The notes below the pieces were generated by a model that had not been told where the DNA came from, did no database searches, and was given only the letters and a program-made list of their open reading frames with translations. Below are positions 1,795-28,834 of a stretch of 64,000 bases of DNA, in pieces. This DNA is from Shinella sp. CPCC 101442 (lineage in GTDB: Bacteria; Pseudomonadota; Alphaproteobacteria; Rhizobiales; Rhizobiaceae): the NCBI RefSeq assembly GCF_024704725.1, contig NZ_JALIQS010000002.1, forward strand, positions 682,001-746,000, written 5' to 3'. The first letter of the stretch is position 1, and each line of letters begins with the position of its first letter. A program made the position numbers and the translations under genes.

Positions 1795-1837
1795 ACGACG
1801 AGACCATTACCATAATCAAATACAGCCTTCGGCTGAT

Positions 1838-2626: not shown

Positions 2627-2645
2627 GAAAATCTGCCATTCTGTA

Positions 2646-5744: not shown

Positions 5745-5752
5745 TTTTTCAC

Positions 5753-10085: not shown

Positions 10086-10325
10086 TTAATCCCATCCCCA
10101 ACCACTACCCATGAGCGGTAACGGATTGGAAACTATTAGAGGCACGGCCGTGCAATCAAGCACACCCAGGCGGTTTGGCCGAAACTCCACAAAATTGAAC
10201 TGCGATGTGATTTATTTTCCACAACTTGCGAAAGAGTGGCGAATCTCCGTTCGGAAGTGTGTGAGGCCGGAGATGCCCATCCGGGACGCTCGCGCAGCAA
10301 ATCTTCGGCGTCCTGCATACTGTTG

Positions 10326-10466
10326 CAATACGGAAATGATTTCCGTGTGCAGTTCTTCGCGAAACACAGCAATGAGCATCACAGGAGTTGCATTGCCCTC
10401 GTTGGGCCGATTGAATCGGCGATACCGATTCTGGGACCAATTGCATGACCAAGCTATTTACGCCGA
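10326..10466 (+). repeat. Imperfect direct repeat, copy R1 (duplicated leader)
   Basis: 141 bp matching 11504-11644 at roughly 85 percent by eye, with two compensating single-base indels. It includes palindrome site 2 at its start and a small hairpin (GAATCGG-CGATA-CCGATTC, 10413-10431). It ends with a relic of the first codons of the restriction gene (ATGACCAAGCTATTTACGCC). It appears to be a duplicated leader and gene start now stranded upstream of the phosphoesterase gene. Confidence 0.8.
10332..10344. promoter_or_regulatory. Palindrome GGAAATGATTTCC, site 2
   Basis: The inverted repeat extends to CGGAAATGATTTCCG (10331-10345). It lies in repeat R1, 101 bp before the relic ATG at 10445 and 176 bp before the TTG start at 10520. 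Same core as sites 1, 3 and 4; likely protein-binding site by inference. Confidence 0.5.
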
Positions 10467-10519
10467 TGAACTGCATAGATGATGCCAAGGCGTAATACCT
10501 AGCTAGCGAGGGTGTTCGT

Positions 10520-11464
10520 TTGCTACAAAACCATTCACATATCGACGTCATTCCCGACATTCACGCTGATCTGGATCGCCTAACAAAAACTCTCACTTAC
10601 CTCGGCTATCGGGAATCAGCTTCATGCTGGGCACATCCTGAGGGCCGAATTGTCGCCTTTCTCGGGGACTTCATTGATGGAGGGGACCAAAACTCCGTGG
10701 TGATCTCTCTCGTGCGCGCAATGCAACTGCACGGTCACGCGATAGCGATCATGGGCAATCACGAACTCAACGCGCTACTCTATCATGAGCAGGGCGAAAA
10801 TTCGGAGCGCACTAGCGACGGGTTCATGCGGGCTCACACCCTAAAGAATACCGCACAGCACGAAACGTTTCTGAAAGAATTTCCAATAGGCGCACCTCAG
10901 ACGCAAGAAGTGCTCGATTGGTTCATGACGCTGCCACTGTTTATCGACCTGCCCGGGATCAGACTGGTCCACGCATACTGGGACGATCGTCACATCGACA
11001 CTATTCGACGCCGAACCGGCGATGCGCGTTTGAAGCGAGATGATTTGCAGGAGTTGGCGTTCGAGACGGATGCCAGTCCATTCGCGGACGCGGTCCTATC
11101 CAGTCTAAAGGGGCCAGAGGCCGAGCTGCCGCACGGCCATTCTTTCACGGACATAAAAGGACATACCCGCACCGCGATCCGGCTGAAATGGTGGCAGGCA
11201 GGCGTTCGCACGTGGCGAAGCTCTGCGCTGTCCGTGCCTCGTTCAGACGACCTTCCGGATACGCCTGTGATCGAAAGTGGCGGGATCAACTTTTATGGCG
11301 CGGAGGAAAAACCTGTGTTCTTCGGGCACTACAAAATGCTCAGTCAGCCTGAACTTGCTGCACACAATGCCCTCTGCCTCGACTACATAGAAAGGCCCTG
11401 CGCGTATCGGTGGAATGGAGAGCAGTTGTTAAGTACGGACAATCTTATCCTGGTGCCCAAATAA
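10520..11464 (+). CDS. Calcineurin-like metallophosphoesterase
   Basis: A 314-residue protein. The start is TTG 10520, preceded by GAGGG about 7 bases upstream. The PPP/ApaH-type metal-binding motifs are visible in order: PDIHADLDRL (about 13-22), FLGDFIDGG (about 49-57), MGNHELNAL (about 76-84), VHAYWD (about 152-157) and FFGHYKM (about 272-278). Such enzymes hydrolyse phosphomonoesters, phosphoproteins or dinucleoside polyphosphates, and the substrate cannot be read here. It sits alone between the Zorya operon and the restriction operon. The duplicated leader (R1/R2) flanks it on both sides, suggesting it arrived as a unit or that the leader was duplicated around it. A role in defence or signalling is possible but unproven. 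Confidence 0.85.
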   Translation: MLQNHSHIDVIPDIHADLDRLTKTLTYLGYRESASCWAHPEGRIVAFLGDFIDGGDQNSVVISLVRAMQLHGHAIAIMGNHELNALLYHEQGENSERTSDGFMRAHTLKNTAQHETFLKEFPIGAPQTQEVLDWFMTLPLFIDLPGIRLVHAYWDDRHIDTIRRRTGDARLKRDDLQELAFETDASPFADAVLSSLKGPEAELPHGHSFTDIKGHTRTAIRLKWWQAGVRTWRSSALSVPRSDDLPDTPVIESGGINFYGAEEKPVFFGHYKMLSQPELAAHNALCLDYIERPCAYRWNGEQLLSTDNLILVPK

Positions 11465-11503
11465 CAACGACAAAGACGCATCCAACAGACGGTTATCGGG
11501 CTA

Positions 11504-11644
11504 CAATGCGGAAATAATTTCCGTGTGCAATTCTTTGCCAAACACAGCAATCCGCATCGTAGGAGTTGCATCACCCTCGCGGGGGCGATTGAATGGCGAT
11601 GCCGATTCTGGGACAGATTGCATGACCAAGCCATTTTACGCCGA
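11504..11644 (+). repeat. Imperfect direct repeat, copy R2 (leader and first codons of the restriction gene)
   Basis: Partner of R1 (10326-10466), 1178 bp downstream. It contains palindrome site 3, a hairpin resembling the R1 one but with a bulge (11591-11608), and the ATG at 11622 plus the first codons of the restriction gene, so this is the functional copy. Conservation of the non-coding 100 bases before the ATG suggests a leader with a role. Confidence 0.8.
11510..11522. promoter_or_regulatory. Palindrome GGAAATAATTTCC, site 3
   Basis: It extends to CGGAAATAATTTCCG (11509-11523) and lies 100 bp upstream of the restriction gene ATG at 11622, inside R2. The spacing to the start resembles that of site 1 (95 bp) and site 2 relative to the relic ATG (101 bp), supporting a shared control element for the nuclease operon. 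Confidence 0.55.
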
Positions 11645-14600
11645 GCCAATTCTTAATTCGCCATACGAAGTTCCCACGCGCCATCATGCGCTGTCCGAAA
11701 GTGGCGAGCCGCTCAATCAACCGCCCATTGAAGGCCGGCGCCGGTCGAAATACGTGGCACCCGTTCCGAAGAGCCGCAAGATCAAAGCAGATGCCAAAAA
11801 GCAGGCTACGCTTGATCTCGACCAGACCAAGGACGGCAGCAGCCACTACAACCCTACGCCGATCATCAACGAAATTCGCGGCCACATCGCGTCATGGCGC
11901 TCAATTCCCAATCCCAACGACTGGGGCGTCACGCCCGTTACCCAGCGATTGATCCAATATTGGCGAAGCGACAACTTCTCCGGCCCCCGCCCCTTCTATT
12001 GCCAGGTGGAGGCCGTAGAAACTGCGATCTGGCTTGCCGAGGTGGCGCGCAAGAACAAGCAGTACGCTCACATCTTCCGCCATCTCGAAGAAGCAAACCG
12101 AGATGCTAACCCAGAAATCTTTCGTCTTGCGCTGAAATTGGCCACCGGCGCCGGCAAGACAACCGTCATGGCCATGCTCATTGCCTGGCAAGCAATCAAT
12201 GCCGCTCGGCAGCCGAACTCCAGTTTGTTCTCGAGAGGTTTCCTCATCGTTGCGCCCGGCATCACCATCAAGGACCGACTGCGCGTACTGAAACCTTCTG
12301 ACGGCAATAGCTACTATCGCTCTCGGGAACTTGTCCCACAGGACATGATGCCCGACCTGAACAAGGCGAAGATCGAAATCGTCAACTATCACGTCTTTCA
12401 GCGGCGCAAGGCTCACGAGCTGAACGCAGTAGGTCTCCGCCTGATGAAGGGCTGGAAAGGAGAAGCAATCGAGGAACTCGAGACCGAGGGACAGATGCTT
12501 CAGCGGGCCTGCGGCGATCTCCTGCAGATGAAGAACGTCGTGGTCATCAACGACGAGGCGCACCATTGCTATCGCGAACGTCCGGGAAGCCACGAAGAAG
12601 ATGAACTGAAGGGCGAGGAAAAGGACGAAGCCAAGGAAAACAATGAAGCTGCACGGCTTTGGATTTCCGGCATCGAGGCTTTGAAGCGGAAAGTCGGCGT
12701 TCGCGCGGTCTATGATCTCTCGGCGACACCGTTCTTCTTGCGTGGATCGGGATACGAGGAAGGTACACTCTTCCCCTGGGTGGTTTCCGACTTTTCGCTC
12801 GTCGATGCTATCGAGTGCGGCATCGTCAAGCTGCCCCGCGTGCCGGTGTCGGACAATGCCGTCAATGCCGCCACCCCCGTGTTCCGCAATCTTTGGGATC
12901 ACATCGGCAAGAAGATGCCGAAGAAGGGGGCGGGCAAATCCGGCGATCTTGATCCGTTGAGCATACCTGCCGAACTGCAGACCGCGCTCTACTCGCTCTA
13001 CTCCCACTACGAGAAGGAGTTCGAGGCCTGGCAAAAGGTCGGCATCGGCGTCCCGCCGGTGTTCATCGTCGTCTGCAACAACACTGCCAGTTCGAAGCTC
13101 ATATTCGAATGGATTTCCGGCTGGGAACGGGAAGTTGAAGGTGAGCGCCAGACAAAGCACTACGGGCATCTGGAACTCTTCCGGAACTACGATGACCGCA
13201 ACGGCAATCGGCTGCCGCGCATGAACACACTGCTAATCGATTCCCAGCAACTCGAATCCGGCGAGGCGCTGGATTCCAAATTCCGCGATATGGCCGAGGC
13301 GGAAATCGAGCAGTTCCGTAGGGAGATCAAGGAACGCGAGGGTGCCGCGGCGGCCGACAAGCTCTCGGACTCAGAACTCTTGCGTGAAGTGATGAACACC
13401 GTCGGGCAGAAGGGCCGGCTCGGCGAGCAGGTGCGGTGCGTCGTCTCCGTGTCGATGTTGACGGAAGGCTGGGATGCCAACACGGTCACCCATATTCTTG
13501 GCGTTCGCGCTTTCGGTACGCAATTGCTCTGCGAGCAGGTGATCGGCCGCGGCCTGCGCCGCCAGTCCTATGAGCTGAATGACAATGGGCTGTTCAATAC
13601 CGAATACGCTGACATTCTCGGCATTCCCTTCGACTTCGCTACCGAGCCCCAAGAGGTGACGCGCACGCCGCCAAAACCGACGACGCGTGTCCATGCGCTC
13701 AAGGAGCGCAACGACCTTTCCATCCGCTTTCCGCGCGTTGCCGGCTATCGCGCCGAGCTCCCCTCCGAGAGCTTTTCGGCCAATTTCTCGGCGGACTCAG
13801 TCCTCGACCTGACGCCAGAATTGGTCGGCCCCTGTACGGTCCGTCTCGAAGGGCTGGTCGGCGAAGGCCATGACATTTCTCCGGATGCGCTCGATGACAT
13901 GCGGCCGAACACCGTCGCGACGCATCTCACCAAGAAGCTCATCGAGATGTATTTCCGTGAGCCGGATCAGGACGTTCCCTACTACCTCTATAACCAGCTC
14001 CAGCCCATTACCCGGCGCTGGATTGCCACTTGCCTGAATCTCACTGGTGGCACCAGGGCGGGCATGCTGACCTATGCCGAGCTGGCAGAGAAAGCATCCG
14101 AACTCATCTACCAAGCCATCGTCCGCAGCGCCGGTGAAGATGGGGCGAGTATCGTAAAGGCCATGCTCGATCCGTACAATCCGCACGGCTACACCGACCA
14201 CGTGTCTTTCATCACGACCAAGCAGACGCTTTGGGAGACCCGCCTTTCCCACGTGAATTACGTCGTCTGCGATAGCGATTGGGAAGCGGAATTTGCCCGC
14301 GTCGTGGAAGCGCACCCAGCTACGATCTCCTACGTGAAGAACCAGGCGCTCGGTTTCGAAGTACCCTATCGCTCAGGCAGCGTTCTGCGCCGGTATCTGC
14401 CGGACTTCATCATACAGGTCGATGACGGTCGCGGACTGGATGATCTGTTGAACCTGATCATCGAGGTCAAGGGCTTCCGAGGCCTCGATGAACAAATCAA
14501 GGCCGAGACCATGACGAACCTCTGGGTTCCCGGCGTCAACAATCTCAAGGCCTACGGCCGCTGGGCGTTTGCCGAATTTCGAAACGCCTTTGCGATGGAG

Positions 14601-14657
14601 GAGGATTACGGAAAGTTGGTCAAATCGTTTGCAGCACGCGTCGGGGAGAATGCATAG
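11622..14657 (+). CDS. Type III-like restriction helicase-nuclease (BPTD_3080-like Res)
   Basis: 1011 residues from ATG 11622; the frame stays open to 11523, but the added 33 residues fall in the duplicated non-coding leader. It is a superfamily 2 DEAD/DEAH helicase: ATGAGKT (about 174-180), DEAHH (about 311-315) and QVIGRGLRR (about 639-647). A C-terminal PD-(D/E)XK nuclease site follows: LPDFII (PD about 927-928) then EVKG (E948, K950). The N-terminus (MTKPFYAEPILNSPYEVP) and overall layout match what I recall of the BPTD_3080 restriction endonuclease family. Expected role: ATP-dependent cleavage of DNA lacking the modification placed by the methyltransferase at 17767. The stop TAG is followed directly by the ATG of the next gene. 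Confidence 0.9.
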   Translation: MTKPFYAEPILNSPYEVPTRHHALSESGEPLNQPPIEGRRRSKYVAPVPKSRKIKADAKKQATLDLDQTKDGSSHYNPTPIINEIRGHIASWRSIPNPNDWGVTPVTQRLIQYWRSDNFSGPRPFYCQVEAVETAIWLAEVARKNKQYAHIFRHLEEANRDANPEIFRLALKLATGAGKTTVMAMLIAWQAINAARQPNSSLFSRGFLIVAPGITIKDRLRVLKPSDGNSYYRSRELVPQDMMPDLNKAKIEIVNYHVFQRRKAHELNAVGLRLMKGWKGEAIEELETEGQMLQRACGDLLQMKNVVVINDEAHHCYRERPGSHEEDELKGEEKDEAKENNEAARLWISGIEALKRKVGVRAVYDLSATPFFLRGSGYEEGTLFPWVVSDFSLVDAIECGIVKLPRVPVSDNAVNAATPVFRNLWDHIGKKMPKKGAGKSGDLDPLSIPAELQTALYSLYSHYEKEFEAWQKVGIGVPPVFIVVCNNTASSKLIFEWISGWEREVEGERQTKHYGHLELFRNYDDRNGNRLPRMNTLLIDSQQLESGEALDSKFRDMAEAEIEQFRREIKEREGAAAADKLSDSELLREVMNTVGQKGRLGEQVRCVVSVSMLTEGWDANTVTHILGVRAFGTQLLCEQVIGRGLRRQSYELNDNGLFNTEYADILGIPFDFATEPQEVTRTPPKPTTRVHALKERNDLSIRFPRVAGYRAELPSESFSANFSADSVLDLTPELVGPCTVRLEGLVGEGHDISPDALDDMRPNTVATHLTKKLIEMYFREPDQDVPYYLYNQLQPITRRWIATCLNLTGGTRAGMLTYAELAEKASELIYQAIVRSAGEDGASIVKAMLDPYNPHGYTDHVSFITTKQTLWETRLSHVNYVVCDSDWEAEFARVVEAHPATISYVKNQALGFEVPYRSGSVLRRYLPDFIIQVDDGRGLDDLLNLIIEVKGFRGLDEQIKAETMTNLWVPGVNNLKAYGRWAFAEFRNAFAMEEDYGKLVKSFAARVGENA

Positions 14658-16574
14658 ATGTCGGGGTCAACGTTCAAGACAAATCCGGTCGCGCTGCAAG
14701 AATTGCTGAAGAAGTGTGACGATGGGAAGCTTCAGCTACCGGACTTCCAGCGCAGTTGGGTGTGGGATGAGGATCGGATCAAGAGCCTGATCGCATCCAT
14801 TTCGCGGGCCTTTCCGGTTGGTGCACTTATGACCCTCGAGACCGGAGGCGGTGTTAACTTCAAGCCGCGGCCTATCGAAGGCGCGCCCGAGACGGCGAGG
14901 CGAGTCGAACCCGCAGAGTTGCTCCTCGACGGCCAGCAACGAATGACGTCGCTCTATCAGGTCACGTTGCGCGGCCAAGTCGTGAAGACTATCACGCCGA
15001 AGAAACAACCCGTAGAGCGGTGGTTCTTCATCGATATCAAAAAATCGCTAGACCCTTCGGTCGATCGGGAAGAAGCGATCATCTCGGTTCCTGCGGACAA
15101 AATCGTACGTTCCGACTTCAACCGAACGATCGATCATGATTATTCCACCACCGAGCGTGAATTCGAGAACCTCGTTTTCCCTCTCTCCCGCGCCTTCGAC
15201 GGAATGGCGTGGCAGATGGAGTTCGTGACCTGGGCCAACGCCAACGGCCGCATGCAGGAGCTTTGGCCAACCGTCCAGCAGTTCTATACGGAAATCCTGG
15301 CGAACTTCACCGGTTACCATGTTCCTGTCATCGCACTCGACAAGACGACAACCAAGGAAGCTGTGTGCACGGTCTTCGAGAAGGTCAACACGGGTGGCAA
15401 GCCACTCGATGCGTTCGAGCTTGTTACAGCCATCTATGCCGCTGATGGACATGAACTTCGCAAGGACTGGTACGGCGAAGGTAGAGACAACAAGGGCCGA
15501 CACGGAATTTTCGTCAGTGCTCAGAGGCTGGCGGATGCCGAAAAGGGTATCCTGGCCAATGTGGCCAACACCGACTTTTTGCACGTGATCTCACTGTTCC
15601 ACACACGCGATCTTCGGCGCGCTGCGGTGGCTGCCACCAAGGAAGGCAAGGACCTTCCTCAAATTACGGGCAAGAGAGGAGCCCTGCTGAATCTTCCGCT
15701 CAGCGCCTACAAGAAATACGAGAAATTGGCTGAGCAGGGTTTTCTCAAGGCCGCGAAGTTCCTCTTCACACAGCGCGTCTACCGCTTGTTCGATCTGCCC
15801 TACCAAACGCAGATCATTCCGCTTGCAGCGATCCTCGCGGACATCGGCGACGCCTGGGAGCTCGAAGGCAACCGCGAGAAAATCCAGCAGTGGTACTGGT
15901 GCGGCGTTTTGGGCGAACTCTATGGGTCGGCCGTCGAAACCCGGATTGCACGCGATTTCCAGGAAGTGCCCGCTTGGCTAACCGGGGGCAAGGCCCCTGC
16001 GACAGTCTCGGAAGCCTCCTTCCGCCCAGATCGGCTAAAGACGATGCGCATGCGGCTCTCCGCGGCCTACAAAGGCGTGAACGCGCTCCTGATGAAGGGG
16101 CGCGCTCAGGACTTCCGCTCAGGTCAGGAATTCGATCACACTGTCTTCTTCGGCGAGAATGTCGACATCCATCACATCTTTCCGAAGAAGTGGTGCGAAG
16201 ACAACAAGATCAAACCGGACGTCTACGATTCCATTATCAACAAGACGCCACTTTCCTATCGCACGAACCGCATCATTGGCGGCGTTGCGCCCTCCGCGTA
16301 TCTGGCAAAACTCGAGAATGGCAGCGCCGAGGCGACACCCGTCGATCCTGTTCGTCTGAATGGTTTCTTGGCCTCGCACCTGATCGATCCGACGCTCCTT
16401 CGCACAAACGAATTCACGGCCTTCATGGAGGCTCGTCAGCAAGCGCTACTTAGCCTGATTGCGCAGGCAATGGGCAAGCAGGTGGAAATGCCGAGCGCAG
16501 CAGTGGATCAGGAATATTCCGACGAACTCGATGAGGACGAGGCGGAAGCGGAATTTACGATGGCAGCGGAATAA
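14658..16574 (+). CDS. DUF262/HNH (GmrSD-like) nuclease
   Basis: 638 residues, starting at the base after the Res stop. The N-terminal DUF262 (GmrS-type NTPase/nuclease) has PDFQRSWVWDEDRIKSL (about 28-44), the characteristic DGQQR (91-95) and FEKVNTGG (240-247). The C-terminus has an HNH-type site of GmrD/DUF1524 style: VDIHHIFPKKW (about 502-512) and NKTPLSYRTNR (about 528-538). GmrSD enzymes are type IV systems cutting modified, often glucosylated, phage DNA. Here the protein is co-transcribed with a modification methyltransferase, so it may extend protection to phages whose DNA modification blocks Res. The last about 25 residues are strongly acidic. That functional link is inference. Confidence 0.88.
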   Translation: MSGSTFKTNPVALQELLKKCDDGKLQLPDFQRSWVWDEDRIKSLIASISRAFPVGALMTLETGGGVNFKPRPIEGAPETARRVEPAELLLDGQQRMTSLYQVTLRGQVVKTITPKKQPVERWFFIDIKKSLDPSVDREEAIISVPADKIVRSDFNRTIDHDYSTTEREFENLVFPLSRAFDGMAWQMEFVTWANANGRMQELWPTVQQFYTEILANFTGYHVPVIALDKTTTKEAVCTVFEKVNTGGKPLDAFELVTAIYAADGHELRKDWYGEGRDNKGRHGIFVSAQRLADAEKGILANVANTDFLHVISLFHTRDLRRAAVAATKEGKDLPQITGKRGALLNLPLSAYKKYEKLAEQGFLKAAKFLFTQRVYRLFDLPYQTQIIPLAAILADIGDAWELEGNREKIQQWYWCGVLGELYGSAVETRIARDFQEVPAWLTGGKAPATVSEASFRPDRLKTMRMRLSAAYKGVNALLMKGRAQDFRSGQEFDHTVFFGENVDIHHIFPKKWCEDNKIKPDVYDSIINKTPLSYRTNRIIGGVAPSAYLAKLENGSAEATPVDPVRLNGFLASHLIDPTLLRTNEFTAFMEARQQALLSLIAQAMGKQVEMPSAAVDQEYSDELDEDEAEAEFTMAAE

Positions 16575-16602
16575 GACAAGCCGGTGGAGATTAGTGGCTG
16601 AA

Positions 16603-17352
16603 ATGCGGGATAAATCGCTGATCTACTGGGCAACCATCGAGCATCACCGCTGGTGGCTCTGCCATGATCAAGTGTATCTGAACCTGCTTGCAAAGGAGGG
16701 GCAGCTTTCCCCATGGATAGTTCGATTGATTGCCAAAGCGTACGGGGTCAATCGCGGTATTCCCCGTGCGACGGATACTGGCCCAAGCGATCCTGCAGCA
16801 ACTGCAATCGCTGATGCTTTAGGCAACGCTGCACAACAATTCTCCGGCACACTTCCCCAGCGCTTTTCGGTTTGCGTCAACATATTGCGGCAACTGCCGC
16901 CCGGGATTCGGGGGGCCGAATCCGCAACCCCGAAGTTCGTTTCCGGGACAACGAAGCTCATGTGGTTTCTCAAGCCCGCAGGATGGACGATGTTTGATAG
17001 CTTTGCTGCCAACGCGCTCGGTATCGCGCGAGGAAAGAGCTCAGATCGCGCCCGTCTTTTCTACGCGGCACTAGAGAAGCAAGGTTTTGCTCAGAAATCA
17101 GAGGCGGGCAATGCGGTAATTCGGGCTTCAGGAATTCCCGAGCTCTACGCCGAACGTGTGATCGACAAGTACTTGTGGCTGGCCGGGTGCACGCAACAAA
17201 CTCGAGAAAAAGCCAAGGCCATTTGTGAAGCCTACCTCCAGGGCTTGCCGTCCAAACACGCGGAAGACCTTCAAGCGCTTGCGTCTGCTCTAGCGAATTT
17301 GCTCGGCGAAAATCCGTTCTCTGAAAACGGAGGCGAACCTTATGCGACCTGA
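16603..17352 (+). CDS. Unknown protein of the nuclease operon
   Basis: 249 residues from ATG 16603, with GGAG at 16586-16589; a GTG at 16594 is an alternative with tighter spacing. I do not recognise the family. It looks soluble and mainly helical. The most conspicuous segment is SGTTKLMWFLKPAGWTMFDS (about 116-135), with Lys/Trp/Asp residues that could form an active or binding site. No membrane segment, zinc cluster or P-loop is seen. Its stop overlaps the start of the next gene (17342), so it is translated as part of the operon and probably works with the restriction proteins. Confidence 0.75.
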   Translation: MRDKSLIYWATIEHHRWWLCHDQVYLNLLAKEGQLSPWIVRLIAKAYGVNRGIPRATDTGPSDPAATAIADALGNAAQQFSGTLPQRFSVCVNILRQLPPGIRGAESATPKFVSGTTKLMWFLKPAGWTMFDSFAANALGIARGKSSDRARLFYAALEKQGFAQKSEAGNAVIRASGIPELYAERVIDKYLWLAGCTQQTREKAKAICEAYLQGLPSKHAEDLQALASALANLLGENPFSENGGEPYAT

Positions 17353-17767
17353 GCCGCCGGCAGAGTGGACTAGAGCGGCTGTCGACGCAGCGCGCACCTT
17401 GAAGGCCCAAACGCGGTGGGATGCCAAGGAATGGCTGAAATCAACAAACGGGCGAAAAACGACGCGGAGTATCTATGCCATCCTGCAGCATGACCCCAAT
17501 CACGAGGACCCGTTTGGTGTCTACGTGGGGCATACCCATCACAGGCCGTTCGAGCGATATGCCGAGCACAGGAAAGGTGAAGGGTTCGCAGACGTACAGA
17601 AATTCCATGTTCGTCTTCTCCCGGAACTCTATCAGCATCTCAACCCAATGAAACCTGCCGAAGCCAAGGAAATGGAAAAGGCCCTCTGTGCCGCGCTACG
17701 GAGCGCAGGTATTGGATGGGTCACGATGGGCAGCAAGCGTCGCGCCTCAAAGGAGAAGAAACAATAA
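17342..17767 (+). CDS. Small GIY-YIG-like nuclease domain protein
   Basis: 141 residues; ATG 17342 overlaps the upstream stop by 11 bases. The core fits a divergent GIY-YIG fold: SIYAIL (43-48) in place of GIY, GVYVGHT (59-65) in place of YIG, an Arg/His region RPFERYAEH (68-76), and a later Glu in KEMEKAL (about 109-115) as possible metal ligand. GIY-YIG nucleases make single- or double-strand cuts and occur in restriction enzymes and homing endonucleases. The stop TAA shares one base with the next ATG (TAATG). The fold call rests on motif spacing; catalysis is unproven. Confidence 0.65.
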   Translation: MRPEPPAEWTRAAVDAARTLKAQTRWDAKEWLKSTNGRKTTRSIYAILQHDPNHEDPFGVYVGHTHHRPFERYAEHRKGEGFADVQKFHVRLLPELYQHLNPMKPAEAKEMEKALCAALRSAGIGWVTMGSKRRASKEKKQ

Positions 17768-20715
17768 TGGCCAAGACCCCGCGCGAAAAAGACGTCTCCA
17801 CCCTCACCCACGGCCAGGCGGTGCGGCTGAACAACCCGACGGCTGAGATGGCGTCGCTCTACGAGCAGCAGGTGGAAATGCTGGGCGATGGCGGACGCGA
17901 GATGCGGATTCCGCGTGACCGGCCGCTGGCGCATGGCGAGGAGCGGGATCGGGACATGGACCGCGATCCGCAGGTCATCTGGAATGGCGTGAAGATCAAG
18001 ATCACGCATGCGCAGATGAAGAAGCTGGCCGAGACCGGCGAGATCGAGATCGGCGACGCCCAGCTCGTCTGGCGCGGCAAGGACCGGCAGGATTGGTCCG
18101 ATCTCGTTGTCAACGCGCCGCCGCTCTATATCCAGGAAAAGGTGCATCCCAAGGCGATCATCGACGATCTCAAGCGCCGCACCAACAAGGCCCGCGAGGA
18201 GAAGTCGGACGCGCCTGACCTCTTCGCCGATTTTAACGGCATTGCCGATCCAGAGGCGCGCGCAGAATTCTACCAGCACACCAAACATTGGCAGAACCGC
18301 ATGATCCTCGGCGACTCGCTACAGGTGATGGCGAGCCTCGCCGAGCGGGAGGAGATGCGCGGCAAGGTGCAGTGCATCTTCTTTGACCCGCCTTATGGCA
18401 TCAAGTTCAATTCGAACTGGCAGGTCTCGACCATGAGTCGGGACGTGAAGGACGGGAAGAAGGAGGACGTCAGCCGCGAGCCGGAACAGGTGAAGGCCTT
18501 CCGCGACACATGGAAGGACGGCATCCACTCCTACCTCACCTATTTGCGCGAAAGGTTGATGGTCGCGCGGGAGCTTCTCACCGAAAGCGGTTCCATCTTC
18601 GTTCAGATCGGCGACGAGAATGTTCATCGCGTCCGTGCGTTGATGGATGAGGTATTTGGAGAAACGAACTTTGTTAGTCAGATAGCCTTCACCAAAGGGG
18701 CAGTCGGGTTGGGTGCTACCGGGCGGCTAGCTGCCAGGTTGGATTACTTACTATGGTTCAGCAAAAGCGGTCAGCCCAAATATCGTCAACTCTATGACCT
18801 GAAAGATGCTCAGGAGGACCCGAACTTCAATTGGGTACTTCTGCATAATGGGCAATTGGTGCGTCGATCTCAAGCCAGCGAAGTCGAGCTAAGAAATTCA
18901 AAGTTCGCGCAAGACGTTTCTCTCACAAAGCCAGGCCCAGGAGCAAAGTATGAGATTGAATTTGAAGGAAAGATGTTCAACTCTGGTGCCCGGTGGTGGG
19001 GAACACCTAAGGCGCAGTTGGCGCGGGCTATAAGATCAGGACGAATTATCCGGATTGGAAACTCGCTTCGCCACTTGAGGCTCTTAGAAGAATCTGGGTT
19101 AACGGCCCACGGCAATCTCTGGGCTGGATTCATCGGTCAAAATGCTCCGGTATATGTCGTTCAAACTAACACCCAAATTGTTGAGCGATGCATTTTGATG
19201 ACCACCGACCCTGGTGACATCGTATTCGACCCTACCTGCGGCTCTGGCACGTCTGCATATGTTTCGGAGCAGTGGGGGCGAAGGTGGATCACTACGGATA
19301 CTTCCCGTGTAGCGCTAGCGTTGGCTCGTACACGTCTCATGGCCGCAACTTACCCTTATTACCTACTCTTGGATTCCCAAGGAGGTCGAGCTAAAGAACA
19401 GGCCGTATCTGGCAAGATATTGGCTGACACGCCAATAATAAGTGATGTTCGGCAAGGTTTCGTGTACGAGCGCGCACCGCAGATTACGCTCAAAAGCATC
19501 GCTAACAATGCCGAGATCGATGTAATCTGGGAAAAGTGGCAGGAGGTGCTGGAACCGCTGCGCCGTCAGCTCAACGATGCACTTTCCACTGACTTCGAGG
19601 AATGGGATATCCCTCGCGATCTCGACGCTTGGCTGGATGGCAAGGACGGCCAAGCCAAGGCGCATCTCGTGACCGAAAAGGTGCGCAAGCTGCACGTCGG
19701 TTGGTGGGAAGGCCGGATCGCCCGGCAGAAGGAGATCGACGCCTCGATCGCCCGGGCCGCCGATGTCGCACTGCTCTATGACCGCCCTTATGAGGACAAG
19801 ACCAAGGTACGCGTCGCCGGGCCCTTCACGGTCGAGAGCCTGTCGCCGCATCGCGTCGTCGCCGCTCGCGAGGACACGCTGGGCGCGGAGCTATCCGCAT
19901 CCGGCGCGATCACGTCGCGCGCCTCGACCCCCGGCAACATGCCGGAAGCCGATTTCGGCGAGATGGTGCTCGCGCATCTGCGCAGCGCCGGCGTTCACCA
20001 GCAGGAGAAGCGCGACACGATCCACTTCAGCTCCATCGAGCCGTGGCCGGGGAACTATATCGCCGCCGAGGGCCGCTATGCCGATGGCGGCGCGGTGGAA
20101 AAGCGCGCGGCGATCCTGATCGGCCCGGAATTCGGCACGCTGACCCGCAGCCAGATCACCGCGTCCGCCCGCGAGGCCTCCGACGCCCGCTTCGACGTGC
20201 TGATCGCCTGCGCCTTCAATTTCGACGCCCAGGCGACTGACCTCAACCGGCTCGGCCCACTCGCCATCCTGAAGGCACGCATGAACCCCGACCTGCACAT
20301 GGCCGAGGACCTGAAGAACACCGGAAAGGGCAACCTCTTCGTCGTCTTCGGTGAGCCGGACGTCGAAATCCTCAATGCGCCCAGCGGCGAGATCAGGGTG
20401 AAGGTCCACGGCGTCGATGTCTTCGACCCCTCCACCGGCGAAATCCGCTCCGACGACGTCAAGGGCATCGCCGCCTGGTTCATCGACACCGATTACGACG
20501 AGGAGAGCTTCTTCATCCGCCACGCCTACTTCCTCGGCGCGAACGATCCCTACAAGTCGCTGAAGACCGCGCTGAAGGCGGAAATCGATCCAGATGCGTG
20601 GGAGACGCTTTATGCCGACACGTCGCGGCCGTTCGCTCGGCCGAGCACGGGGAGGATCGCGGTGAAGGTGATCAACCACTTCGGCGACGAGGTGTTGAAG
20701 GTGTTTGGGGTTTAG
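17767..20715 (+). CDS. Mod-type site-specific DNA methyltransferase
   Basis: 982 residues from ATG 17767, coupled to the previous stop. Motif order is that of beta-class N6-adenine/N4-cytosine methyltransferases: catalytic DPPYGIKFNSNW (from residue 207) precedes the AdoMet-binding DPTCGSGT (488-495), with the target-recognition region between them. About 450 further C-terminal residues are unlike classical Mod. It should protect host DNA from the Res encoded at 11622. Codon use changes sharply inside the gene: from about 18640 to 19500 it is AT-richer, with many TTG, TTA, ATA and AGA codons, while both flanks are GC-rich. This points to replacement of the recognition segment by recombination. 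Confidence 0.92.
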   Translation: MAKTPREKDVSTLTHGQAVRLNNPTAEMASLYEQQVEMLGDGGREMRIPRDRPLAHGEERDRDMDRDPQVIWNGVKIKITHAQMKKLAETGEIEIGDAQLVWRGKDRQDWSDLVVNAPPLYIQEKVHPKAIIDDLKRRTNKAREEKSDAPDLFADFNGIADPEARAEFYQHTKHWQNRMILGDSLQVMASLAEREEMRGKVQCIFFDPPYGIKFNSNWQVSTMSRDVKDGKKEDVSREPEQVKAFRDTWKDGIHSYLTYLRERLMVARELLTESGSIFVQIGDENVHRVRALMDEVFGETNFVSQIAFTKGAVGLGATGRLAARLDYLLWFSKSGQPKYRQLYDLKDAQEDPNFNWVLLHNGQLVRRSQASEVELRNSKFAQDVSLTKPGPGAKYEIEFEGKMFNSGARWWGTPKAQLARAIRSGRIIRIGNSLRHLRLLEESGLTAHGNLWAGFIGQNAPVYVVQTNTQIVERCILMTTDPGDIVFDPTCGSGTSAYVSEQWGRRWITTDTSRVALALARTRLMAATYPYYLLLDSQGGRAKEQAVSGKILADTPIISDVRQGFVYERAPQITLKSIANNAEIDVIWEKWQEVLEPLRRQLNDALSTDFEEWDIPRDLDAWLDGKDGQAKAHLVTEKVRKLHVGWWEGRIARQKEIDASIARAADVALLYDRPYEDKTKVRVAGPFTVESLSPHRVVAAREDTLGAELSASGAITSRASTPGNMPEADFGEMVLAHLRSAGVHQQEKRDTIHFSSIEPWPGNYIAAEGRYADGGAVEKRAAILIGPEFGTLTRSQITASAREASDARFDVLIACAFNFDAQATDLNRLGPLAILKARMNPDLHMAEDLKNTGKGNLFVVFGEPDVEILNAPSGEIRVKVHGVDVFDPSTGEIRSDDVKGIAAWFIDTDYDEESFFIRHAYFLGANDPYKSLKTALKAEIDPDAWETLYADTSRPFARPSTGRIAVKVINHFGDEVLKVFGV

Positions 20716-20717
20716 GT

Positions 20718-21530
20718 ATGGCCGAACCTATGCTGCCGTTTGAAGACCTGCGGATAGAGCTTCCCGACTACGTGAAAGAGGATGGCTCTGTCGCCTCCCA
20801 ACCATTCTCAAAATCCAGCCATACGTTTTTTCGCCGCGAAACTCTGAAAAGCGATGGCGAAGGCGTCGGTCTCCGCACGGATTATTTCAAGCAACATCTG
20901 GTGGCGATTTTCGAGAAGATCGGTCGTCCGGTCCCCTATCGTTTCACGGATCATCTCGGACGCAATCGCTCCATGGATGGCGGCTGCCTGAAGTTTGTCG
21001 GGCCTGATGGCCAGGACATCGCCGAGTTCGTGGAGTTGGGCGGATACATCGTTGCAGCCACCCCGAAACCAGCGCTTGTCGCACAATATGGCACGACCAA
21101 CCCGGCAGCGACTGATATCGAGCAATTGGAGAAAGACGGCAGTCTAAGCGTGACGGAACGCAAACAGCTGATAGATGCTCGACTTGGCCAAGGCAACTTC
21201 CGAAAGCAAGTGCTGGCATCTTGGCAAGACCGATGTGCGGTAACATCTTGCGAACTCTCCGTCGTTCTCAGAGCTTCGCACATCCTTCCGTGGCGGGATG
21301 CAGACAATGCCGAAAGGCTGGACCCGGAGAATGGCTTGCCGCTGATTGCAACGCTTGACGCGTTGTTTGATGCCGGCTTGATCTCGTTCTCCGACGACGG
21401 GCGGCTACTTTGCAGCTCTAGCTTGAAGGAATACCCTGACCTCGTGTCGCCAGGCTTGAAACTGCCGAGGTCTCCAAGCCCTAAGATGCGGACCTATCTC
21501 GACCGGCATCGCCGGCAACATGGATTTTGA
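20718..21530 (+). CDS. HNH endonuclease
   Basis: 270 residues from ATG 20718, two bases after the methyltransferase stop. The N-terminal about 150 residues are unassigned and may recognise DNA or a modified base. The C-terminal part has an HNH site: CAVTSC, then ASHILPW, then ENGLPLIATLDALFDAGLI, all within about 174-230. This pattern is common in restriction-type HNH enzymes. It overlaps the next gene by 11 bases. The substrate is unknown; being downstream of Mod and near GmrSD-like and Res genes, it is likely another nuclease arm of the same system. Confidence 0.85.
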   Translation: MAEPMLPFEDLRIELPDYVKEDGSVASQPFSKSSHTFFRRETLKSDGEGVGLRTDYFKQHLVAIFEKIGRPVPYRFTDHLGRNRSMDGGCLKFVGPDGQDIAEFVELGGYIVAATPKPALVAQYGTTNPAATDIEQLEKDGSLSVTERKQLIDARLGQGNFRKQVLASWQDRCAVTSCELSVVLRASHILPWRDADNAERLDPENGLPLIATLDALFDAGLISFSDDGRLLCSSSLKEYPDLVSPGLKLPRSPSPKMRTYLDRHRRQHGF

Positions 21531-22404
21531 TGATGGGCATCGCTGGAAAATCCAACATGTCATGGTCGGAACAGCGATGAGCAATGCTCCCTACAACGGA
21601 TATTCCTGGCAGCAGCGAGCACGCATCATTCCCGCCTATCGCAAGCTAACGGGAAAGCATGCGCCGTTCGAAGGTGAGGCCTGCGCCATGTGTAGCGATC
21701 CGAACCGACCGCCAGGAGAATGGCATTCGGAGGACTATTCCGAACCTTTCAGCTTCCAGCCGCCGCAATCATTCCCGCTTTGCAAACCCTGCCACACGCG
21801 GCTCCACAAGCGCTTCAAAGCCCCACGTGGTGAATGGCAACTCTTCTGCCACCATCTCGAAGCTGGTGGCTATGGCGCGGAGTTCGTAAATCTCCATGAT
21901 CTTGCCGAGCGGCGAGCACTGTGCGAACGGGTTGCATCCGGTGCTCCTATTGTATTCTCCCGCATTCGGCCGAAAGAGCCCGGGCCACACTGGTGGCAGA
22001 ATCTGACTCTCGATCCGGAATCTCTCGTAGCACCCTGGGCTCGACCACGCCCGTTGCGTCCCAGACCGGATCGCGACGCGTTCCTGGGAGCTTTCAAGGC
22101 TGTCGATCTCTCCGATCGCGAAATCACGTTGCTTCGCATTCATGCTGCATCGCCGCGCCGCACGGCAACAATGCGAACCCTTGCCCGTGAAGGACTGGCA
22201 AGCGATAGCTATCAGGCAGCTAACAGCGCTTATGGCGGACTTGCGAGAAGGTTGACGTCGCTTCTCGATTGGGAACCCGACTTGCGCGAGGATAAATCGC
22301 CTTTCTGGATGAGCGTCCTGGCCGAAGGCTGGACTCCTCCCGGACGCGAATTCGAATTGACAATGGTGCCATCGGCAGCGATGGCGGTGAGAGAGTTGAA
22401 ATGA
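21520..22404 (+). CDS. HNH-like zinc-binding protein
   Basis: 294 residues from ATG 21520 (in-frame ATGs at 21561 and 21576 are alternatives). Residues about 45-95 contain CAMC, then WHSEDY, then LCKPCHTRLHKRF, a four-cysteine zinc site with His residues reminiscent of HNH nucleases. The C-terminal half has a helical segment (from DREITLLRIHAASPRR to YGGLARRLTSLL) similar in style to a domain I have seen fused to HNH and 5-methylcytosine-dependent proteins; this is recognition without a search. Overlaps on both sides place it firmly in the operon. It may be a second HNH nuclease or a DNA-reading partner of the first. Confidence 0.7.
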   Translation: MDFDDGHRWKIQHVMVGTAMSNAPYNGYSWQQRARIIPAYRKLTGKHAPFEGEACAMCSDPNRPPGEWHSEDYSEPFSFQPPQSFPLCKPCHTRLHKRFKAPRGEWQLFCHHLEAGGYGAEFVNLHDLAERRALCERVASGAPIVFSRIRPKEPGPHWWQNLTLDPESLVAPWARPRPLRPRPDRDAFLGAFKAVDLSDREITLLRIHAASPRRTATMRTLAREGLASDSYQAANSAYGGLARRLTSLLDWEPDLREDKSPFWMSVLAEGWTPPGREFELTMVPSAAMAVRELK

Positions 22405-24500
22405 CCACCATACTCGCCGACAGCTTTACCGCATCCTTGGCCAAGCTGAGCAATGACGAACAGAAGCAGGTGAAGCTGACGGCGTTCGATCTGCAGACCG
22501 ATCCGAATCGGCCAGGCCTGCAGTTCCACAGGATCGATGCGTCCAAGGACCCGAACTTCTGGTCGGTGCGGGTCAATCGCGATCTCCGGATCATCATCCA
22601 CAAGACCGGCGACAGCGTCATGCTTGCCTACGTCGACCACCACGACGACGCCTACAAGTGGGCAGAACGACGGAGAATCGAGACCCATCCGCGCACAGGT
22701 GCACTTCAGATCGTCGAAGTGCGTGAACGGGTCGAAGAGATCGTGATCCAGCCGGCGCCGGCGCGACAGCCAGAGTTGCCGTTCCTCGTTCAGGCAACGC
22801 CATCGGCTTCTGCTTTGCCGCTGTTTTCAAGACTGTCAACCGACGACGCATTGTCGATCGGGGTCCCCGAGGACTGGATCAAGGATGTCCTCGGTGCAAG
22901 CGAAGACAAATTCTTCACGCTTGCTAATCATCTACCCCAGGAAGCAGCCGAGGCTTTGCTGGAATATGCGGCAACGGGTGTCCTCAGTAAGCCGACTCCG
23001 CCGGCTACCTCCGATCCTTATAGCCATCCCGATGCTCAACGGCGGTTTCGTATTCTGGAAGGGCATGAGGAGCTGGCGGCGGCGCTCGACCAGCCATTCG
23101 AGAAATGGGCAGTCTTCCTTCATCCATCGCAGAAGGCGTTGGTGGATCGAGACTTCTCCGGACCGGTGCGCGTGGTCGGCTCGGCCGGCACCGGAAAGAC
23201 CGTGGTCGCCTTGCACCGCGCCGCTCGCATTCTCCGCAACGAGCCTCAGGCGAAGCTGCTCTTGACGACCTTCTCGGAGCCGCTTGCCGCCGCGCTGAAG
23301 CGCAAGCTTGGCGTGCTCCTTGCCGACACCCCCTCTCTCGCCGACAGGGTGACCATATCGTCCTTCGAACAAGCGGCAGCTGACCTGTTCGCGCTCATGA
23401 CGGGTCGGAAGGCCTATCTGGTCAGTCGGGAGAAACTGAGGGCACTTATCACCGACGCGGCGAATGCTGGCAGCATGACGAAATACACGCCGCAGTTCCT
23501 GAATTCCGAGTGGGAGCACGTCATCGACGCCTGGCAAATCGATAGCGCCGAAACCTATGCAACTGTGCCGCGGATGGGGCGTAAGAATCGACTTGGTGCG
23601 AAACAGCGCGATGAACTCTGGACAGTGTTCGCGGATGTTCGCAGGCAATTGCGCGAAAAGGCGCTGTTGACCGCTGCCGACCTGTTCACTGTGGTTACCG
23701 ACCACTTCCGGGACCGCGCAGACAGGCCCTATACGCATGTAGTCGTCGATGAAGCCCAGGACCTCGGCGTCGCCGAACTGCGGTTCCTGAACGCCATTGT
23801 GCCCAACCGACCGGACTCGCTTTTCTTCGCCGGGGACATCGGCCAGCGCATCTTCCAGCAGCCATTTTCCTGGAAGGGGCTGGGTACTGACGTGCGTGGG
23901 CGGTCGTTCACGCTCAAGATCAACTATCGCACCTCGCATCAGATTAGAAGGATGGCGGACAGGCTGCTTCCCGAAAGCATCCGGGACGTCGACGGTGAGG
24001 AGGATCAGCGCAAGGGTACGGTATCAGTCTTCGATGGCGTTGATCCTGTTATCGTCGTCGCACCGACAATCGAGGAGGAAGCTGCGGCGGCCTCGCAATT
24101 CCTCCGCAACCTTTTGGAACAGGGAATAAGTCCCAACGAGATCGGCATCTTCTGCCGATCGAACGACCAGATCGCTCGTGCATCGAAGGTCGCCGAACTG
24201 GCAGCCGTCGGCACAGTTTCATCGCTCGCCGGGCGAGGCCCCGAAGAGGCAGTGCTCATCGGTACGATGCATCTAGCAAAAGGTTTGGAATTCCGTGCTG
24301 TCTTGATCGTCGCCTGCGATGAAGGGGTCCTGCCGCTGGCGGCGCGGATCAACGACGTCTCCGACGAGTTCGAGTTGGACGAAGTCGTGGCGACAGAGCG
24401 ACAATTGCTCTACGTCGCCGCAACCCGCGCCCGGGACCATCTCTTCGTCTCCGCGGTTGGGCCCGGTTCAGAGTTCCTGGAGGACTTGCTTCACGTTTGA
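22401..24500 (+). CDS. UvrD-type helicase with N-terminal ParE/RelE-like domain
   Basis: 699 residues; the start overlaps the previous stop by 4 bases. Residues 1 to about 75 look like a RelE/ParE fold (segment GLQFHRIDASKDPNFWSVRV and a following RDLRIIIH). The rest is a superfamily 1A helicase: GSAGTGKT (260-267), DEAQD (450-454), an INYRTSHQIRR motif, GTMHLAKGLEF and LLYVAATRARDHLFV near the end. Such enzymes unwind or process DNA ends. As last gene of the nuclease operon it may process cut phage DNA; the toxin-like domain may be a structural or RNA-binding element. The operon appears to end here; the next gene is convergent. Confidence 0.85.
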   Translation: MTTILADSFTASLAKLSNDEQKQVKLTAFDLQTDPNRPGLQFHRIDASKDPNFWSVRVNRDLRIIIHKTGDSVMLAYVDHHDDAYKWAERRRIETHPRTGALQIVEVRERVEEIVIQPAPARQPELPFLVQATPSASALPLFSRLSTDDALSIGVPEDWIKDVLGASEDKFFTLANHLPQEAAEALLEYAATGVLSKPTPPATSDPYSHPDAQRRFRILEGHEELAAALDQPFEKWAVFLHPSQKALVDRDFSGPVRVVGSAGTGKTVVALHRAARILRNEPQAKLLLTTFSEPLAAALKRKLGVLLADTPSLADRVTISSFEQAAADLFALMTGRKAYLVSREKLRALITDAANAGSMTKYTPQFLNSEWEHVIDAWQIDSAETYATVPRMGRKNRLGAKQRDELWTVFADVRRQLREKALLTAADLFTVVTDHFRDRADRPYTHVVVDEAQDLGVAELRFLNAIVPNRPDSLFFAGDIGQRIFQQPFSWKGLGTDVRGRSFTLKINYRTSHQIRRMADRLLPESIRDVDGEEDQRKGTVSVFDGVDPVIVVAPTIEEEAAAASQFLRNLLEQGISPNEIGIFCRSNDQIARASKVAELAAVGTVSSLAGRGPEEAVLIGTMHLAKGLEFRAVLIVACDEGVLPLAARINDVSDEFELDEVVATERQLLYVAATRARDHLFVSAVGPGSEFLEDLLHV

Positions 24501-25639: not shown

Positions 25640-26389
25640 TCAGGTCGGTGGACCAGAGGACGCCTTGAGCAGGCGCGTGATCTCCTCGCCCGTCATGACC
25701 CCGACATCCTTCAACCGCGTAGCGATCGCGATCAGCGCGTCTCGCCGGTTCTCCAGCAGATTTCGGGCCATCGCTTCGGCTTCCATCAGGCGACTGTTGA
25801 CCCGATCCGCGAGCTGCCGGTCGAGACTGAGCTCGTTGATGCTTCCCGCCACGGACCTATAGAGCAACGGCTGATGATCGGAGAAGCCGAGCCGAGTCTC
25901 GGCGGCAACCGCATGTGCCGTTGCCTTGGCCAGATCGCTGTCATCGTATCCACCTGCCCCGGCCACCGCCTCGCCAAAGATCAACAACTCCGCCGTCCGC
26001 CCGGCCAGCATGCAGGCGATGGTTCTCATCAACCAGTCCTGCGTCTGCTGCGACTGGTTATTCTGCCGGCTGACCACCCGCCCCATTCCTCCGATCCCGA
26101 TGCTTGCGGTGACGACCTCGGCGATTTCGGTGTTACAGAACGCGATGGCATGACCGGCTTCATGAATGGCAGTACGCCAGCGCACATCGTCGGAGAGTTT
26201 CACCTGGCCGGCCAGCAAGGCATGCTCAAGATCGCCCCAGGTCAGCGACCGCTGTTGTCGTCTGGTTTTCCGACGAACGTCACGAACAAGTCGTTCGATG
26301 TCGGCTCCGGTGCTGCCGGTTGCCAGCAAGGCCAGCCGTCGAAGATCAGGGGACTGTGCTGTTGCGATCGTGCGGATCGGCTCAGACAT
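25640..26389 (-). CDS. M41 (FtsH-type) peptidase, separate from its ATPase
   Basis: 249 residues from ATG 26389, with an AGAGGAG ribosome site about 8 bases upstream. It overlaps the end of the ATPase gene by 8 bases. Residues about 15-45 (GSTGADIERLVRDVRR) look like the second half of the AAA+ lid of FtsH. Then comes the zinc protease: HEAGH (76-80), and a later Asp in DDSDLAKAT that corresponds to the third zinc ligand of FtsH. No membrane segment. So an FtsH-like protease has been divided between two genes, and the product must assemble with the ATPase upstream. Substrate unknown. Confidence 0.85.
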   Translation of the reverse strand: MSEPIRTIATAQSPDLRRLALLATGSTGADIERLVRDVRRKTRRQQRSLTWGDLEHALLAGQVKLSDDVRWRTAIHEAGHAIAFCNTEIAEVVTASIGIGGMGRVVSRQNNQSQQTQDWLMRTIACMLAGRTAELLIFGEAVAGAGGYDDSDLAKATAHAVAAETRLGFSDHQPLLYRSVAGSINELSLDRQLADRVNSRLMEAEAMARNLLENRRDALIAIATRLKDVGVMTGEEITRLLKASSGPPT

Positions 26390-28415: not shown

Positions 28416-28834
28416 CACACGCCTTCCTCCGTTCCATGAATACCGCGAGGTGTCGGCATCCCATCGACGGCCAACAGCTTGCGATTGCCCTCGAGCCAGT
28501 CGCGTAACATCAGCGCCGTCGGATCGCGGGCCGCACACAGAGTGAGGAGTTGCTCACGGAAGATTTTCGGGACGCTGGTCATGGCGATACCCTTGCGCCT
28601 GACAAAGCCGATCACGACCTGGGTGACGATTGCCGGATCGGGCAAGGCAGCGGGCGTTGCCGCGCACATGGCCATGGCCTGAGGAATGGCTTGTGACATG
28701 GAAGTCACCGCGCAGCTCGTCGCCTCTTGCAACTTCGCCAGTCGCTTCAGCCGGCTGGATGGCTTCGGCGTCGAAGGCATCTTGTGCGCAGGGTTGTTGG
28801 GGAAAGGGATCACGTTGGAAGGGTGTCGGCTCAT
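28415..28834 (-). CDS. Unknown small protein of the split FtsH operon
   Basis: 139 residues from ATG 28834, with GGAGA about 6 bases upstream. The N-terminal about 30 residues are polar and basic with a PFPNNPAHK segment; the remainder is helical, with an Ala/Met-rich middle. No known motif seen. The stop overlaps the ATPase start by one base, so translation is coupled and the protein likely acts with the ATPase-protease, for example as an adaptor or substrate (inference). Confidence 0.7.
   Translation of the reverse strand: MSRHPSNVIPFPNNPAHKMPSTPKPSSRLKRLAKLQEATSCAVTSMSQAIPQAMAMCAATPAALPDPAIVTQVVIGFVRRKGIAMTSVPKIFREQLLTLCAARDPTALMLRDWLEGNRKLLAVDGMPTPRGIHGTEEGV

Follow-up and report, generated by a model that had tools for sequence, protein, structure and literature searches.

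A putative type III-like restriction unit of Res, Mod and RelE-UvrD with two cargo pockets in Shinella sp. CPCC 101442

Introduction

Type III restriction-modification (R-M) systems, represented by EcoP15I and by NCBIfam family NF046055, combine a Res subunit carrying Walker A, DEAH and PD-(D/E)XK motifs with a beta-class Mod methyltransferase carrying DPPY and a variable target-recognition region. Cleavage by type III systems requires a pair of sites in inverse orientation, and methylation affects a single strand. The listed Res and Mod features recur in an operon at positions 11622-24500 of a 64,000-nucleotide stretch of Shinella sp. CPCC 101442 (contig NZ_JALIQS010000002.1, positions 682,001 to 746,000; hereafter the window). 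The operon differs from those systems in its large Mod of about 980 amino acids (aa), in placing Res before Mod, in an apparent third core gene encoding a RelE-UvrD fusion, and in cargo genes that lie between the core genes. A third gene in type III systems has been reported, and the available text of that report describes a superfamily 2 (SF2) helicase-like ATPase encoded 5' of mod (Murray et al. 2021, PMC8259958). Both settings have a helicase-type third gene consistently beside mod and res, but the window protein is a superfamily 1 (SF1) UvrD helicase with a RelE domain, encoded at the 3' end, and the same text does not mention cargo pockets. Bordetella pertussis appears in a table of that article with an m4C motif; equating the entry with the BPTD_3080 system is a guess.

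Two further types of system bear on this locus. In ARMADA type II, as portrayed in the accessible part of a preprint (PMC12458937), ArmD is a UvrD (GajB-like) helicase with an N-terminal RelE-like domain, and deletion of armD or mutation of the Walker A lysine abolishes defence. That system, like the window operon, has a RelE-UvrD-type helicase as its last gene, after a methylase, whereas its partners are BrxHII-like, PglX-like and YprA-like proteins and those in the window are a type III-like Res and Mod. For BREX, excerpts of the literature argue that GmrSD, HNH and other nucleases act as embedded auxiliary and backup effectors (PMC12839542), and a second-line logic is reported for the GmrSD-like BrxU and for PrrC (PMC12707154). 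BREX, as these excerpts present it, and the window have in common that type IV and HNH nucleases accompany the core genes of a methylation-based system, inside their operon or next to it; the BREX core is not type III, whereas the window cargo occupies two pockets whose limits are start and stop codons of core genes. PrrC in the EcoprrI type IC locus is also a second-line effector gene within a restriction operon, although that locus, in the part of the source seen, has a single effector and a type I system, unlike the window unit (PMC12707154). A first-pass annotation of the window knew of no described system with the same eight genes, and none was found in the open-access literature. As a literature term, BPTD_3080 returned no paper from the open-access PubMed Central (PMC) literature, and no description of a Res-Mod-RelE/UvrD unit was recognised in open-licence PMC literature, which is weak evidence of absence.

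Results

Conservation of Res, Mod and RelE-UvrD

The operon consists of eight open reading frames (ORFs), all on the + strand, with junctions of, in order, 0, +28, -11, -1, +2, -11 and -4 bp. Six of the seven lie within 11 bp and the sole 28-bp gap precedes the gene at 16603, a spacing that the first-pass annotation had described correctly. A scan for promoters and terminators gave nothing above shuffled sequence (3 versus 3.5; 11 versus 13.9). Three of the eight genes, encoding Res (11622..14657), Mod (17767..20715) and RelE-UvrD (22401..24500), were found to recur together. Loci were gathered from genomes, plasmids and genome stretches by similarity to the window Res or RelE-UvrD, which makes them a non-random sample; ORFs were called mechanically, and a tblastn match at any place in a locus counted as presence of the gene. 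Core matches occurred in 95 loci, or 91 after near-identical ones had been merged. Fifty of the 91, the window included, have Res followed by Mod and then RelE-UvrD, all on the same strand, and one (L014) has another order; the rest comprise six loci with Res and Mod, at least 4.5 kb of room and no RelE-UvrD, eight with less room, and 26 with a partial core, which lie outside the 50. When only Res-selected loci with Mod are counted (44), 31 have the full arrangement, one the other order, six lack RelE-UvrD and six have too little room, which places RelE-UvrD in 32 of the 38 testable loci. L006 and L108 are one locus, the former standing among the eight little-room rows and the latter among the 50, and L006 was omitted from the 44. 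A sample of 397 genomes of the taxonomic order contained Res in 27 and RelE-UvrD in 27, with both in 17 and 10 of each alone (Fisher p 2e-16).

The three proteins also diverge together. Pairwise distances were compared in 38 of the 50 loci, full-length single ORFs of all three proteins being required, with the Mod target-recognition region removed (Mod-core). Correlations were 0.92 for Res and Mod-core, 0.93 for Res and RelE-UvrD, and 0.90 for Mod-core and RelE-UvrD, and none of 500 permutations reached these values in any of the three cases. At correlations of 0.90-0.93, RelE-UvrD appears bound to Res as tightly as Mod is, and because Res, Mod-core and RelE-UvrD co-diverge, RelE-UvrD looks like a third core part of a BPTD_3080-type, type III-like restriction unit. 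The RelE-like part of RelE-UvrD shows strong conservation, with R57, R63, H67, Y77, H80, H81, D82 and Y85 each present in at least 95% of sequences. Loci L077 and L084 and the plasmid locus L114 are examples of the core free of cargo. Within the genus, RelE-UvrD was present in 2 of 21 genomes, including that of the window, and a Shinella zoogloeoides plasmid record contains a match. Eighteen viral-collection contigs (L124-L141, IMG/VR) encode RelE-UvrD, 12 of them with adjoining Res and Mod; the three-gene unit may ride on prophages or satellites, or the contigs may have been misassigned.

The first-pass annotation had taken the eight genes as a single system and had named their co-occurrence in other genomes as a check. 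The full set is rare, being found in one of the 50 core loci, the window itself, and it is the Res, Mod and RelE-UvrD triple that recurs (50 loci). By tblastn, the DUF262 gene is present in 14 of the 50, the HNHa family in five, the gene at 16603 in three, and the GIY-YIG-like and HNHb genes in two each; Rhizobium altiplani (L003) carries six of the eight operon genes. Judged by these distributions, the eight genes do not make up a single fixed defence machine; they would be a three-gene core with five exchangeable extras in two pockets. Beyond what that annotation had noticed, gene 8 appears as a conserved core part, all close relatives examined have a different Mod target region and a Zorya type I system adjoins the operon.

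Profile and motif searches assigned the core proteins as follows. Res scored 1273 bits against NF046055 (BPTD_3080; cut-off 800) and has Walker A (GAGKT), DEAH and PD-(D/E)XK (PDF...EVK) motifs, the SF2 ATPase and nuclease combination of type III enzymes; Pfam gave ResIII at 37 bits and RE_endonuc at a sub-threshold 16 bits. Mod is a type III-like beta-class DNA methyltransferase (PADLOC MTase_III PDLC03632, 1127 bits; Pfam N6_N4_Mtase, 104 bits) with DPPY at 224 and DPTCGSG at 505, so that motif IV precedes motif I as in the beta class and in type III Mods. The earlier reading of a defence-type operon with a BPTD_3080-family Res and Mod was therefore sound, and the PADLOC profile check it had proposed named Mod and left Res at 26 bits at most against the REase_III models. 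The proposed ParE/RelE-UvrD fusion has UvrD domains at 69 and 78 bits (PF00580/PF13361), all four tested helicase motifs (GTGKT, DEAQD, NYRT and AATRAR) and an N-terminal HigB/RelE match that is sub-threshold at 18 bits.

RelE-UvrD is 30-38% identical over 98-99% of its length to proteins of three loci (L070-L072) that were called ARMADA by gene order and size, not by a family test. In Thermus and Haematobacter this homologue is the last product of loci that also encode an N-6 methylase and giant DEAD/DEAH helicases, and it occurs with a giant helicase on an Escherichia coli plasmid. By this similarity, RelE-UvrD and the ArmD of ARMADA type II are distant homologues. An ArmD-type protein thus follows a methylase-plus-helicase set in ARMADA-like and window-type loci alike, as would be expected if the cargo-free trio were itself ARMADA-like, with the helicases doing most of the restriction and Res/Mod merely replacing the ARMADA helicase and methylase module. 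That explanation is highly improbable, given that Res keeps its PD-(D/E)XK motif and that a giant helicase ORF is absent from the window operon. No BrxH, PglX or YprA/DrmA-type match was found among the eight genes with Pfam or PADLOC (in PADLOC, among the best 25 of 45 matches for Mod and the best 25 of 40 for RelE-UvrD).

Exchangeable genes between the core genes

Pocket A was defined as the interval between Res and Mod, and pocket B as that between Mod and RelE-UvrD. Pocket A measures at least 700 bp in 34 of the 50 loci and pocket B in 23, and in seven both are empty (at most 230 bp). Pocket ORFs of at least 100 aa number 96 on the core strand and 13 on the opposite one; the 96 form 57 clusters, 37 of them singletons. 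Of 47 pocket proteins compared with Pfam (an L085 ORF was dropped as a piece of a broken Mod), 21 scored above cut-off, seven had sub-threshold matches only and 19 had none. Thirteen of the 14 DUF262/GmrSD_N genes are pocket A ORFs, a distinct GmrSD-like gene lies in pocket B of L075, and the HNHa family occupies pocket B in its five loci. Other families include REase-ARP/PD-(D/E)XK (L002), PDDEXK_4 (L006), Bro-N, NYN, DUF3800, RhuM, SNase, HNH_2, DUF3644 and a metallo-beta-lactamase fold, with KilA-N in L030, outside the 50. Pocket B of L010 encodes three ThsB-type TIR proteins (PADLOC 218-247 bits) and a SLOG protein. On a Methylomagnum plasmid (L115, 17666-20174), a CBASS cyclase (553 bits) and a phospholipase effector (343 bits) directly follow Mod; this locus has BPTD_3080-type Res and Mod (Res 47% identical), has no RelE-UvrD and lies outside the 50. 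Genes annotated as Shedu nuclease and DarT flank the core on an R. leguminosarum plasmid (L113; 8954-10111 and 22003-23166).

Start and stop codons of the core genes mark the edges of the pockets. DNA similarity of the window to L003 is 96% over 1621-18690, breaks at the target-recognition region, is 83% over 19153-20714, breaks again over pocket B and resumes at 85% from 22401, the RelE-UvrD start codon. Similarity to L109 and L068 ends at 20716, the Mod stop, and resumes at 22401; after pocket A it resumes at 17767, the Mod start codon, in L109 and at 17754 in L068. Taken together, the comparison of loci shows three genes that remain linked in a constant order, diverge in step and border two pockets receiving unrelated genes, many of them of predicted defence type.

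The window holds five cargo genes. In pocket A, the product of 14658..16574 is a predicted single-chain type IV-like nuclease with GmrSD_N (PF03235, 100 bits) and HNH-type parts, as the first-pass annotation had proposed for a GmrSD-like candidate inside the Res/Mod unit. GmrSD-type (type IV) enzymes cut modified DNA only. The window protein has DGQQR, the mark of the DUF262 family, and an HHIFPK motif; the GmrSD_C (DUF1524) profile gave no match at E <= 0.1, and the best PADLOC model was PDC-M55C (80 bits). A sequence search of the PDB with this protein and Res, up to E 0.01, returned no match. The next gene (16603..17352) encodes a protein that matched no family in Pfam, PADLOC or NCBIfam scans. 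It has relatives in L003 and L068, and on the two Rhizobium plasmids inspected its relatives sit apart from Res and Mod. Its single-sequence structure model had a mean pLDDT (the model's confidence score) of 43, too low for a fold search. The product of 17342..17767 is a probable GIY-YIG-like nuclease, a call that the profiles left weak. In favour are a GVYVG motif and a Caballeronia relative (44% identity over 69 residues) that scored 14.6 bits against GIY-YIG PF01541 (cut-off 22.6), but the window protein gave no GIY-YIG match, its sole Pfam match up to E 0.1 being a sub-threshold Cas9-WED at 17 bits. No viral-contig relatives were found for this gene or the one at 16603. In pocket B, two HNH calls fared differently. 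HNHa (20718..21530) is an HNH_2 nuclease by profile (PF13391, 41 bits), whereas HNHb (21520..22404), an HNH-like zinc protein with C-x2-C ... C-x2-C at residue 55, matched no family in Pfam, PADLOC or NCBIfam and was recognised by its zinc/HNH motif only; a relative lies in pocket B of L108. PDB sequence searches up to E 10 returned nothing for HNHb, the GIY-YIG-like protein or the 16603..17352 product.

The DUF262 gene mostly follows the core in its divergence (r 0.78 with Res over 13 loci, no permutation test). It has nonetheless been replaced between the window and L109, where the DUF262 proteins are 64% identical and the Res proteins 97%. Relatives at 62-68% identity occur on plasmids of Sphingomonas, Sphingobium, Sphingopyxis and Paenarthrobacter. 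None of these belongs to the 34 plasmids that gave a Res match, and the Paenarthrobacter copy stands amid IS3 transposases. Because such near relatives lie on plasmids without a Res match, the gene looks like a stand-alone gene captured by the window core. The same observations bear on whether all eight products, or more, form one integrated complex whose nucleases need Res and Mod. The tight, overlapping junctions of the window would suit such a complex, as would the single stretch 96% identical to L003 (1621-18690), which spans Res, the three pocket A genes and the 5' part of Mod and indicates that pocket A can be inherited with the core. The complex is very unlikely all the same, since all eight genes are together in one locus of 50, seven of the 50 have no cargo, DUF262 homologues (62-68%) exist on plasmids without a Res match, and the window and L109 differ in DUF262 (64%) while their Res proteins are 97% identical.

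Turnover of the Mod target-recognition region

The Mod target-recognition region corresponds to 18691..19152, where L003 has no DNA match. Against its six nearest relatives, Mod is 14-48% identical over residues 351-500 of the 999-aa ORF, compared with 72-100% over residues 101-300 and 80-86% over residues 501-550. In all 11 locus pairs whose Res proteins are at least 90% identical, the target regions are 21-42% identical, the median over all pairs of the 38 loci being 28%. Target-region distances were unrelated to those of Res (r 0.02, a value reached in 180 of 500 permutations) and weakly related to those of Mod-core (r 0.13; 25 of 500). The region is therefore exchangeable, as in type III Mods.

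If the pocket genes were restriction partners matched to Mod specificity, target region and cargo would be expected to move together. Compared with the window, L003 has a changed target region and a changed pocket B with pocket A retained, and L125 and L127 compare in the same way. Across 54 Mods (including L006 and L108, which have the same Mod, and some Mods in two ORFs), the 27 pairs sharing a pocket B family had a mean target-region identity of 0.297 and the other 1394 pairs 0.293, with 758 of 2000 permutations as high. In L127 and L138 pocket B is 100% shared while the target regions are 32% identical (the L138 Mod is in two ORFs and was aligned in pieces), and in L125 and L132 the target regions are 82% identical and the cargo different. 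A match of cargo to target specificity is thus largely refuted, pocket B sharing being unaccompanied by higher target-region identity, and we give this explanation scarcely any weight; by these comparisons, cargo and target region are uncoupled.

Transfer and possible recombination scars

Two close relatives of the window locus, in R. rhizogenes (L002, extended as L109) and in R. altiplani (L003), have Res proteins 97-98% identical to its own, a closeness suggestive of recent horizontal transfer. Fragments of relE-uvrD were found beside cargo. Pocket B of an Arenimonas metagenome-assembled genome (L108) contains a 5' fragment of 69 aa that matches the full copy at 77% DNA identity across 194 bp, and that of L010 a decayed 5' fragment of 31 aa; Methylomicrobium sp. 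wino1 (L019) has truncated relE 5' fragments beside cargo in a genome without full RelE-UvrD. The fragments fit cargo arrival by recombination at relE-uvrD, and partial duplication followed by decay is also possible. At the other end of Mod, a 29-aa stretch 59% identical to the Mod N terminus lies upstream of Mod in L021 and is a possible scar, and short Mod N-terminal matches occur in pocket A of L031 and L068. Two further candidates were rejected. Duplicated Mod N-terminal pieces in pocket A of L004, L108 and L087 were an artefact of an over-extended L134 ORF in another frame, and a duplicated Res C terminus in L074 was dropped when its Res ORF was seen to overrun the usual end, with a query that was not Res.

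Flanking genes

A complete Zorya type I system (2646-10085, - strand; PADLOC ZorA 1022, ZorB 405, ZorC 642 and ZorD 1364 bits) adjoins the operon divergently and is not part of it. L002 and L003 have these four genes next to the core as well, at 95-100% identity, and the L078, L082 and L085 stretches contain Zorya-like genes that are more distant. Directly upstream of Res, a calcineurin-like phosphoesterase gene (10520-11464, + strand; Metallophos 40 bits) is possibly in the Res transcript; it is 95% identical in L003 and had no match in the other loci compared for it. On the far side lies a gene for an AAA+ protein with an IetA-like C-terminal domain (26382-28538, - strand; 78 bits), followed by an overlapping 336-aa ORF (25640-26650) that by eye resembles an FtsH-type peptidase.

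Such surroundings raise the question of an ordinary defence island, a chance pile-up without dedicated pockets in which RelE-UvrD has no functional link to Res and Mod. The adjoining Zorya system, the variation of neighbourhoods outside the core as well, and the occurrence of DUF262 and RelE-UvrD elsewhere would all be natural in an island. Core order and co-divergence, pocket edges at core start and stop codons and the 96:13 strand bias within the pockets would not, and we regard the island as unlikely, if the least unlikely of the alternatives.

Discussion

The locus is probably a type III-like R-M unit of three core proteins with two cargo pockets. As a working model, Mod would methylate one strand of an asymmetric site set by its target-recognition region, and Mod and Res together would cut foreign DNA that is without the mark. 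RelE-UvrD would be a dedicated third component that translocates along DNA or unwinds it, either at the Res cut or later, and its RelE-like domain may carry a nuclease or toxin function. Cargo genes would ride on the core transcript as independent second-line effectors, by the same logic as that proposed for the embedded effectors of BREX. The DUF262/HNH protein of the window would attack modified DNA that escapes Res and Mod, and the GIY-YIG-like and HNH proteins would serve as backup nucleases. The target region and each of the two pockets are swapped separately, apparently by recombination in the conserved core genes.

Several observations weigh against this model. RelE-UvrD is missing from six of the 38 testable loci, from which Res and Mod may work without it. 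In a divergent BPTD_3080 clade of six loci, Res is 31-33% identical, Mod lies upstream of Res, and RelE-UvrD was not found at E 1e-60; these six are among the 10 genomes with Res alone. RelE-UvrD in turn occurs in stretches without Res and Mod (L098, L099 and L100) and in the ARMADA-like loci, and in the part of the ARMADA preprint available an ArmD Walker B mutant lost activity only partially (PMC12458937). The mechanically called pocket ORFs include spurious ones and ones that run over the end of Mod in a different frame, and with 19 of 47 pocket proteins unmatched and seven matched below threshold, the description as defence cargo is shown for a part only. The cargo could be passive passengers, and the functions of all these proteins are inferred from their sequences.

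At about even chances, the three-gene unit is a tripartite type III system of Res, Mod and an ArmD-like RelE-UvrD that acts as a carrier, its two codon-fixed pockets collecting and expressing complete defence systems of foreign origin (type IV nucleases, Thoeris-like TIR sets and, in a related locus, CBASS) while its specificity is swapped independently by recombination. A cargo-free three-gene core exists naturally (L077, L084 and L114), which makes the architecture testable and lets the part that an ArmD-type helicase plays in type III restriction be tested alone. The uncoupled target region offers a natural set for studying the exchange of specificity, and the pockets provide a rule for finding new defence genes, namely to read the genes found in the Res-Mod interval and in the interval from Mod to RelE-UvrD.

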